Position numbers and translations under genes: made by a program. The notes below the pieces were generated by a model that saw only the letters and a list, made by a program, of their open reading frames with translations, was not told the origin of the DNA and searched no databases. From Oscillospiraceae bacterium (GTDB lineage: Bacteria > Bacillota > Clostridia > Oscillospirales > Acutalibacteraceae), in assembly GCA_029012165.1 (NCBI GenBank), contig JAQXLO010000075.1, forward strand, positions 1 to 34,513: 34,513 nt of DNA. Reading direction: 5' to 3'. Shown piece by piece: positions 17,912 through 27,961 of the stretch (position 1 is the first letter of the stretch; every line of letters begins with the position of its first letter).

Positions 17912-17946
17912 AAAGAGCAGGACAGCCGCACCGTCCTGCTCTTTTT
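17912..17946. terminator. Bidirectional-looking intrinsic terminator, shared with the small-ORF copy B locus
   Basis: gagcaggac agccgcacc gtcctgctc ttttt; near-identical hairpin at 26571-26604. Confidence 0.8.
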
Positions 17947-17963
17947 GCTTTGACTGTGTAAAC

Positions 17964-18086
17964 GCTTTTCACGAAAAATGGATACGCTTCCCTGATGCTT
18001 GAATTTCCCGCCTTTGGAATTCGCAAGCCCTTTAGCATGGCTTGAACGCAACTTGGAGTCCCACAAAAAACGTGACGCAGCTTAAT
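17964..18086. repeat. Degenerate copy of the hairpin repeat, inserted between the small-ORF A stop codon and its terminator
   Basis: Minus strand TCACGTTTTTTGTGGGAC...TTCAAGCC...GGGCTTGCGAATTCCAAAGGCGG matches the left part of 33742-33813; absent from copy B, where the stop codon runs directly into GTTTACACA. Confidence 0.65.
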
Positions 18087-18182
18087 TTATGCGACTTTTT
18101 CCTGTTCGCTGCCGAGAAAGGCCATGACAAGACCTGCGCCGCAGAGTACCGGAACCGTAAGAACACCAATCAGTAACATCAT
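18087..18182 (-). CDS. 31-aa single-TM peptide, copy A: MMLLIGVLTVPVLCGAGLVMAFLGSEQEKVA
   Basis: Complete ATG-to-TAA small ORF with RBS agagggg; paralogous to 26456-26551 in the same frame with conservative or synonymous changes; below the ORF-track length cutoff. Confidence 0.75.
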   Translation of the reverse strand: MMLLIGVLTVPVLCGAGLVMAFLGSEQEKVA

Positions 18183-18228: not shown

Positions 18229-18284
18229 ATTATAACGAAACAAATATTAAGAAACAATCGGGGAAATCCTTAAATAATCCTTAA
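18229..18284 (-). promoter_or_regulatory. Promoter and tandem-repeat operator for small ORF A
   Basis: Minus strand: TTAAGGA-N4-TTAAGGA (18284-18267), TTGTTT (18257-18252), N17, TATAAT (18234-18229); nearly identical to the copy B upstream region. Confidence 0.8.
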
Positions 18285-18341
18285 GACTGCACTGCGAATT
18301 GTGCGTTGCTGCCTGCATGTCACCATACTCCGCAGCAGCAA

Positions 18342-26351: not shown

Positions 26352-26353
26352 CC

Positions 26354-26409
26354 TTAAGGAATTTTTAAGGATTTCCCCGATTGTTTCTTAATATTTGTTT
26401 CGTTATAAT
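26354..26409 (+). promoter_or_regulatory. Tandem-repeat operator and sigma-A promoter for small ORF B
   Basis: TTAAGGA (26354-26360), N4, TTAAGGA (26365-26371); TTGTTT (26381-26386), N17, TATAAT (26404-26409). Confidence 0.8.
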
Positions 26410-26455
26410 AAAGACATAAACCAAAACAAATTTGAAACGAAGAGGGGTTATACAA

Positions 26456-26551
26456 ATGACATTACTGATTGGTGTACTTGCGGTTCCGGCACTCTGCGGC
26501 GCAGGCCTTGTTATGGCCTTTCTCGGCAGTGAACAGGAAAAAATTGCATAA
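26456..26551 (+). CDS. 31-aa single-TM peptide, copy B: MTLLIGVLAVPALCGAGLVMAFLGSEQEKIA
   Basis: Small ORF with RBS agagggg, own promoter and terminator; paralogue of 18087-18182. Confidence 0.78.
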   Translation: MTLLIGVLAVPALCGAGLVMAFLGSEQEKIA

Positions 26552-26570: not shown

Positions 26571-26604
26571 AGAGCAGGACGGCGCAGGCTGTCCTGCTCT
26601 TTTT
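26571..26604 (+). terminator. Intrinsic terminator of small ORF B
   Basis: agagcaggac ggcgcaggct gtcctgctct tttt. Confidence 0.85.
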
Positions 26605-26720
26605 GGAAAGCGCTCCCGTGCAAATTCTCTGACAAAGGGCGAAGCCCGCCGACAGTTGCGGATCTGTCGGCAGGCTTCTGCATGCAGTTTATGGAGAGAA
26701 AGAAAGACGATGGCAATATT

Positions 26721-26758
26721 AAGGCAACACCGCACGATCAGGGTGTGCGAATTGCTTT
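26721..26758. repeat. Short imperfect palindrome resembling the fused ends of the 33849-34010 MITE
   Basis: aaggcaacaccgcacgatc ... gtgtgcgaattgcttt compared with gggcaataccgcacaattg / caattgtgcggtattgccc. Confidence 0.4.
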
Positions 26759-27050
26759 AAACAGCGTGGACAAGCTGGTAGCGGATGCCTTGATCGTTTA
26801 AAAGGTCAAGCCATGCACCCAGACCGAAATTGTTTTCGCACGCCAGCTGCAAAAGCTTTGCGGCATAGGAGACGGACAGATCCGGGCAGACACAGGATTC
26901 CGCCTTGGTGCCGAGGGAGGATTCTTCCCGAACGTACAGAGCGACGCCGCGTGGCAAGGGGTCAGCGTAGTAGGAGAGCGTGCTTGCTTTTTGCAAGCCT
27001 TCGATCTCGGAAAACTGACGCCTGAATAGGGCATACGCCTCGCACTTCAT
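26757..27050 (-). CDS. Small hypothetical protein (possibly DUF6514-like)
   Basis: MKCEAYALFRRQFSEIEG...YYADPLPRGVALYVREESS...; ATG at 27050 preceded by aggatcc RBS-like sequence. Confidence 0.5.
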   Translation of the reverse strand: MKCEAYALFRRQFSEIEGLQKASTLSYYADPLPRGVALYVREESSLGTKAESCVCPDLSVSYAAKLLQLACENNFGLGAWLDLLNDQGIRYQLVHAV

Positions 27051-27075
27051 AGTAAGGATCCTTTCTGTGTCCGTA

Positions 27076-27104
27076 TTGACAAAGGGGGCGGGGCATTGTA
27101 TAAT
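27076..27104 (+). promoter_or_regulatory. Perfect-consensus sigma-A promoter
   Basis: TTGACA (27076-27081), N17, TATAAT (27099-27104). Confidence 0.75.
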
Positions 27105-27364
27105 ATATGATATTATTTTGCAATGCCGCACTGTAATAGAAAGAGAATGGACACAAATCTCTTGTAAAATTTTATTACAGACGCAGTATACAGCAAAATC
27201 GGCACGTTGTCAGGTGCCGAAAGAGCACTTTTTTTCAAGGAATTTGGTGTAAATTTTTGCGTCTGCCGATTCGGGAAAAAGGGACAAAACCACAAATAGT
27301 TTGCCATGTTTTATACAATATGTGTGAAATAAGTACACGGAACAGCAGAAAGGGAGGAACAGTC

Positions 27365-27961
27365 ATGAGCTTATCCGACGGAAAAGACGATCGTCTGCAG
27401 CGCTTTGCCAAAATTTGGTGGAAATCCCGCACCGACGCCAAAAAGTCGCAGGAGTACATGGCGTTAAATTTGGGTGTGTCCAAACGAACCGTGCAAAACT
27501 GGGAGCGGGGTACGTCCTCGCCGGATTTCTTCCAAAGTGCCGAGTGGTTTCGCCTGTTGGGACAGAACCCGATCCACTACTATCTGGAATTTTTGTATCC
27601 GAGCCTGTTCGAGAATTTGTCCCCAGCGCAGGATGATGCAGCGATTTCGGAAAAGGTACTGTTTTTAGTCGAGAATATGACGCCGGTAGAAAAGCGGCAG
27701 CTTTTGTATCTGATGGCCGGAAACCACGGCAGCTCATGGTATTCCCTGCTGCAAATGTTCACCGCCCATTGCCACACCTCCATGAAGTCCCGTGTGGCGG
27801 CGGCAAGGGTCATTGCGGAAAATTACGAGATGGAGGCAAAGTCCGGGGACTTGGTGTGCCCCGAAAATGTACAGCCGGACATGGATGTGCTGAACTTTGC
27901 CATTTCTCAGGGCAAGCAGGCGGCGCAGGATCGCAAAATGGGCTACACGACGCAAAAATAA
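27365..27961 (+). CDS. XRE-family HTH transcriptional regulator
   Basis: KSQEYMALNLGVSKRTVQNWERGTSSPDF helix-turn-helix; RBS gaaagggaggaac. Confidence 0.8.
   Translation: MSLSDGKDDRLQRFAKIWWKSRTDAKKSQEYMALNLGVSKRTVQNWERGTSSPDFFQSAEWFRLLGQNPIHYYLEFLYPSLFENLSPAQDDAAISEKVLFLVENMTPVEKRQLLYLMAGNHGSSWYSLLQMFTAHCHTSMKSRVAAARVIAENYEMEAKSGDLVCPENVQPDMDVLNFAISQGKQAAQDRKMGYTTQK

Follow-up and report, generated by a model that had tools for sequence, protein, structure and literature searches.

A short hydrophobic open reading frame just downstream of mntP in an Oscillospiraceae genome raises the questions of whether it encodes a protein, which regulator controls it and on which partner its product could act. 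The stretch of DNA that was analysed, here called the window, comprises 34,513 nt (contig JAQXLO010000075.1). A first-pass annotation had described the ORF as a 32-codon frame with its own ribosome binding site, sigma-A promoter and strong terminator, coding for a small single-TM protein of no recognised family, and had hinted at a tie to mntP. We refer to this ORF as copy B.

Results

Copy B and its transcription unit

All elements of the described transcription unit were found in the sequence (Table 1). The ribosome binding site AGAGGGG ends 8 nt before the ATG, and the terminator consists of a G+C-rich hairpin followed by a T run. One TM helix is predicted for the product, with a 19-residue KD maximum of 2.36 at residues 3-21. 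The reading as a small single-TM protein with a transcription unit of its own is supported. A scan of the whole window for ATG-initiated ORFs of 25-45 aa that have an SD-like site and contain a strongly hydrophobic stretch recovered no others than copies A and B. Further downstream, a perfect sigma-70 consensus (TTGACA-N17-TATAAT, 12/12) is present at 27076-27104 on the plus strand. It precedes by ∼260 nt an ORF whose N-terminus is helix-turn-helix-like (ATG at 27366) and falls in the region where a 124-aa minus-strand ORF (26757-27131) starts.

Table 1. Positions of the microprotein genes, their signals and the C-rich RNA (window coordinates unless a contig or locus is given)
Feature	Position	Strand	Basis
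Microprotein copy B, MTLLIGVLAVPALCGAGLVMAFLGSEQEKIA, 31 aa	26456..26551	+	ORF sequence, homologues, coding statistics
RBS AGAGGGG of copy B	26441..26447	+	sequence; copy A identical
Copy B promoter TTGTTT-N17-TATAAT	26381..26409	+	sequence
Copy B operator CTTAAGGAATT-TTTAAGGATTT-N12-CTTAA, proposed response-regulator site	26353..26391	+	repeat search
Copy B terminator	26571..26604 (approximate)	+	G+C-rich hairpin with T run; homologous to copy A terminator
Microprotein copy A, MMLLIGVLTVPVLCGAGLVMAFLGSEQEKVA	18087..18182	-	homology to B
Copy A promoter TTGTTT-N17-TATAAT	18229..18257	-	sequence, alignment with B
Copy A operator	18247..18285	-	CTTAA repeats, pattern search
Insertion of ∼120 nt in copy A, after the stop codon and before the terminator; B lacks it	17964..18083	-	local alignment
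Copy A terminator region, homologous to that of B	17912..17963	-	47/53 identities
Copy C, third near-copy	C114:13-105		contig edge
Copy D, divergent member, MVEALIACVLILPAFTGVGLAIYHMKKENVPKQARKKKGRKT	C131:3915-4007
Copy E, divergent member, MTALLICSFVFVPTALGIGMAMVGEIRKNYEN...	C147:5804
C-rich RNA	L096:1557-1840 = G000:C146 from about 4313; also L073, L077, L079, L082, L097	+

Five copies and the evidence for translation

The same genome, a fragmented draft of 2.31 Mb in 275 contigs that is 81% complete, holds five family members, A to E. Copies A and B are 87% identical as proteins, and a local alignment that starts at the first CTTAA and runs through the stop codon matches 185 of 202 nt (92% over promoter and ORF). 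Their 3' flanks seemed unrelated in a MAFFT alignment; the local alignment rejected this view, as the terminators align again beyond the insertion in A.

The first-pass annotation had suggested an analysis of synonymous and nonsynonymous changes, and had named an unconserved frame or frameshifting indels as refuting its proposal. Neither was found: the frame is kept in divergent homologues outside the genome. Among A, B and C, 11 sites vary (2/2/7 at codon positions one to three), pN/pS is 0.08-0.33, and a simulation puts the probability of so small a number of amino-acid changes, with no stop, at 0.024. Between species, synonymous sites are near saturation (pS mostly 0.5-0.9) and the protein is still recognisable. 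The stop codon of copy D overlaps the start of the following gene (ATGA) and in the congener G003 only 3 nt separate the peptide stop from the start of the response-regulator gene, both of which fit translation. By these computations the protein is under selection, and we are nearly certain that copy B is a real gene.

The neighbourhoods of the copies have little in common. Copy A is flanked by a phosphate transporter on one side and a GPH-type symporter on the other, copy C adjoins an unrelated gene and copy D lies upstream of a 329-aa protein without Pfam match. The gene before copy E has a C-terminal end that, judged by eye, we take to resemble D,D-carboxypeptidases. Since the neighbours differ at A, C, D and E, we reject a functional tie to mntP, whose position next to copy B is, on this comparison, incidental. 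As far as the sequences compared indicate, conservation lies in the operator and, in three congeners, in the position next to a two-component system.

A dispersed repeat, which starts with AAGGCAACACCG(CAC), occurs after copy B (26719-26733) and at L052 and L104; at copy C it starts exactly where the stop codon lies (L002 from about 105). It resembles a MITE-type element, one that seems to have separated copy C from its terminator.

A microprotein family of one genus

A family profile, built from most of the members found, was searched against 11 congeneric genomes. It recovered 11 members in five of them (the own genome, G002, G003, G010 and G006) at E≤9e-11, scores that members reach partly by construction since the profile includes most of them, and the best non-member match had an E-value of 0.024. 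An earlier profile without copy E and the member on contig C3 of G002 found these two with E-values of 0.041 and 0.0038. A search with a single sequence returned mostly chance matches within long ORFs, and a clean separation of the family was reached with the profile alone. Profile searches of genome samples from the wider family (201 genomes) and from the order (298) detected no convincing member beyond the genus. A weak match in G037, which belongs to another family of the order, was discarded as unconvincing on inspection.

The members have roughly 29-51 aa, mostly 31-32, with the conserved core hhhxPAhhGhGhAM and a single hydrophobic helix in every member examined. Their tails, with charges from -3 to +8, are the least conserved part. 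That no family had been recognised agrees with the database searches, in which Pfam gave no match at or near cut-off for 10 members and NCBIfam none for the two scanned. A limited literature search with few terms found no description of the microprotein family or its regulon. The best reading of these comparisons is a family of multi-copy single-TM microproteins restricted to this genus.

The CTTAA operator and its predicted regulon

Neither the homologues beyond the window nor the operator had been noticed by the first-pass annotation. At the promoter of copy B the operator reads CTTAAGGAATT TTTAAGGATTT CCCCGATTGTTT CTTAA. The general pattern, CTTAA-N6-YTTAA-N18-CTTAA, lies upstream of the -35 and overlaps it, with the third repeat at copy B directly after the -35. 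In the window the CTTAA-N6-YTTAA pair occurs at A and B only, with an expectation of 0.01. Across the genus, the repeat pair together with a -10 box was found at 29 sites, compared to 2 for the reversed pattern. Among the own-genome matches of the strict pattern, the three-repeat form is confined to A and B; among 101 genomes of the wider family it is confined to this genus and one other genome (G034), where it is the promoter of the orthologous response regulator (RR). A viral origin of the peptide unit found no support, as the operator had no match in viral contigs.

Genes 3' of the sites encode TM microproteins, a soluble ∼50-aa family, exported proteins, the RR and a noncoding RNA. The second, soluble family, MKQxLKxLAxRIxxxLDRxGEDFxM, is found under the same operator in G002, G004 and G010 (L035/L091, L037/L084, L039/L095); the one member scanned had no match in Pfam. 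Two members of the TM family, copy E and the one on C3 of G002, have no CTTAA repeats upstream. These two (G000:C147:5804, L143; G002:C3:149303, L141) share another upstream region, consisting of runs of TTTTTCAAAAA and then ACCTTTTCC, so some members of the family may be controlled by a different regulator.

The two-component system

In G002, G003 and G010 the gene order is operator, peptide, RR and kinase (HK). In G002 and G010, peptide and RR are separated by a terminator-like hairpin. The own genome has an orthologous RR-HK pair on contig C151 (HK 67% identical), with CTTAAGAAATTCTTAA directly upstream of the RR; no peptide copy adjoins these genes. Among related two-component loci in other MAGs, a TTAA repeat pair precedes the RR in most cases, namely at L103, L105-L107 and L109-L111, and is absent at L104, L108 and L112. 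Three further congeners (G001, G005, G009) encode an orthologous kinase (44-45% identity) and no family member detectable by profile search. The peptide is therefore an optional component of the system.

The RR is of the OmpR type, with a receiver domain (115.2 bits) and Trans_reg_C (95.3 bits) both above the Pfam cut-offs. The best curated models are VanR-type for the RR, at 231.3 bits below the cut-off of 350, and VanS for the kinase core of the HK, at 142 below the cut-off of 400. The HK of ∼655 aa comprises HisKA and HATPase_c, six predicted hydrophobic TM segments and an alpha/beta extracytoplasmic domain of 120-130 residues. The model of this domain is of fair confidence (mean pLDDT 80), but its best fold match, at E 0.066, is not significant, and a structure search with the full-length HK returned matches to the kinase core only.

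We infer from the conserved association that the RR binds the CTTAA repeats. The family has few members and every regulatory statement stands on comparative sequence, by which the predicted regulon link is strong; the peptide is very probably under the control of the RR-HK system.

A C-rich RNA under the same operator

A noncoding RNA of ∼280 nt is preceded by the same operator and occurs as a single copy in six congeneric genomes, including the own one. It has C-rich loops (CUCCAC, UUACCCCUCC, AUCCCCCUUCG), a GAAAGGAGG box and a terminator, and had no match in Rfam. In at least four genomes it is followed by the gene for a protein beginning MLSMPEYLEQI, which by eye we take to resemble alpha-L-fucosidase. 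A csRNA-like regulatory function is possible for the RNA. Regulation of the peptide itself by this RNA found no support, as its duplex energies with the start regions of A and B are weaker than those with most of 17 background genes.

Discussion

From the comparisons above we propose the following course of events. The RR, of VanR/PhoB type, would bind the CTTAA repeats, spaced by 11 bp, and would activate, rather than repress, most member promoters including that of copy B. When the system fires, the microproteins would be made and presumably inserted into the membrane, where they may feed back on the six-TM kinase by contacts with its TM helices, in the style of MgrB and PhoQ. A modulation of the kinase is suggested because the peptide has the operator of the RR and because it is encoded next to the RR and a multi-TM kinase in several species. 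We consider this role for the microprotein the likeliest of those compared and plausible, though it falls short of being probable.

The main rival to a modulation of the kinase is an output effector, that is, the same family and regulon with a microprotein that binds to a different membrane complex or modifies the envelope during the stress sensed by the kinase, similar in kind to AcrZ, KdpF or MgtS. Five copies dispersed in one genome, the translational coupling of D to a different, unassigned protein and the members outside repeat-bearing promoters would all suit an effector, as would the exported proteins with the same operator and the three species that have a related two-component system without detectable peptide. 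However, no conserved neighbour offers itself as the target complex, and RR-HK is the sole adjacency that recurs across species. We hold an effector to be possible, if rather doubtful.

A membrane toxin or dormancy peptide, induced by stress in the manner of TisB or DinQ and transcriptionally controlled by the two-component system, is unlikely. The product is short, hydrophobic and encoded in several copies with a stress-type promoter and its own terminator, and the literature on TisB and DinQ offers precedents. However, no antisense promoter-like site was detected near the ORF by a search that could miss a weak promoter, and the A/B alignment reveals no conserved antisense partner beyond the transcript. 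The weak pairing of the regulon RNA with A and B and the lack of a family match also argue against a toxin, and co-transcription with the RR, as in G003, would be odd for one.

Still less can be said for a secreted or processed signal, released from the hydrophobic segment by cleavage and detected outside the cell by the extracytoplasmic domain of the kinase. The size of this domain and a peptide gene beside the kinase in three species would allow it, but the N-terminus does not have the positive charge typical of signal peptides, and conservation is lowest in the tail, the part that would serve as the signal; we regard processing of this kind as very improbable. That there is no protein at all, the ORF being a regulatory leader or a chance frame on a conserved small RNA, is hardly credible: the frame is very short, the untranslated leaders of A and B are conserved too (6 of 103 nt differ) and the transcript folds more stably than shuffled sequences (z -4.4, terminator included), but changes concentrate at third codon positions, the protein outlasts near-saturated synonymous sites, copy D and the G003 member show coupling or close spacing, and the stand-alone copies lead no gene.

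Kinase-tuning small membrane proteins are best known from enterobacteria, while the candidates described here come from a Gram-positive gut lineage. As the family, its operator and a candidate partner kinase are all named, the predicted binding and feedback can be tested directly. The locus also illustrates that ORFs below annotation cut-offs can be assigned to a regulon by comparing promoters across species.

Several known systems resemble parts of this arrangement. KdpF, CydX, AcrZ and MgtS are tiny single-TM subunits or regulators of membrane complexes. The family shares their size and topology, but no conserved transporter or oxidase is found nearby, the neighbours vary by copy and Pfam gives no match. 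Like TisB and other type I toxins, its members are hydrophobic peptides of ∼30 aa under stress promoters; in contrast to them, no antisense RNA or family match was found, and a linkage to RR-HK genes exists. The RR and the kinase core score best with VanR and VanS, but every score stays far short of its curated cut-off and the six-TM sensor part is unlike that of VanS.

CiaR of streptococci recognises NTTAAG-N5-TTTAAG ∼10 nt before the -10 (PMC3091779). This core resembles CTTAA-N6-YTTAA and the core spacing fits; the CiaRH regulon, too, contains sRNAs with C-rich loops, the csRNAs. However, the pair here lies >30 nt upstream of the -10 and well before the -35, where a third repeat is found; VanR-type models give the RR its best scores, and the main regulon members are microproteins. 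In sum, the operator core and the C-rich sRNA recall the CiaRH-csRNA design without matching its promoter placement.

MgrB of E. coli is under the control of PhoP and acts as an inhibitor of the kinase PhoQ, with whose TM helices it makes contact (PMC2789325, PMC10576120). Here as well, a small membrane protein is predicted to stand under a response regulator, as suggested by the common operator at peptide and RR promoters, and a multi-TM kinase is the candidate target. In contrast to MgrB, which has 47 aa compared to 31 aa here and to which no sequence relation was detected with Pfam or NCBIfam, the family has several copies per genome, sometimes directly before RR-HK, and belongs to a Gram-positive lineage. 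Tentatively, and with considerable reserve, we propose an undescribed regulon of rumen and gut clostridia in which multi-copy TM microproteins and soluble 50-aa proteins would be the main outputs, joined by a C-rich csRNA-like sRNA, and the TM microproteins would feed back on the six-TM kinase, a possible Gram-positive counterpart of both PhoQ-MgrB and CiaR-csRNA.
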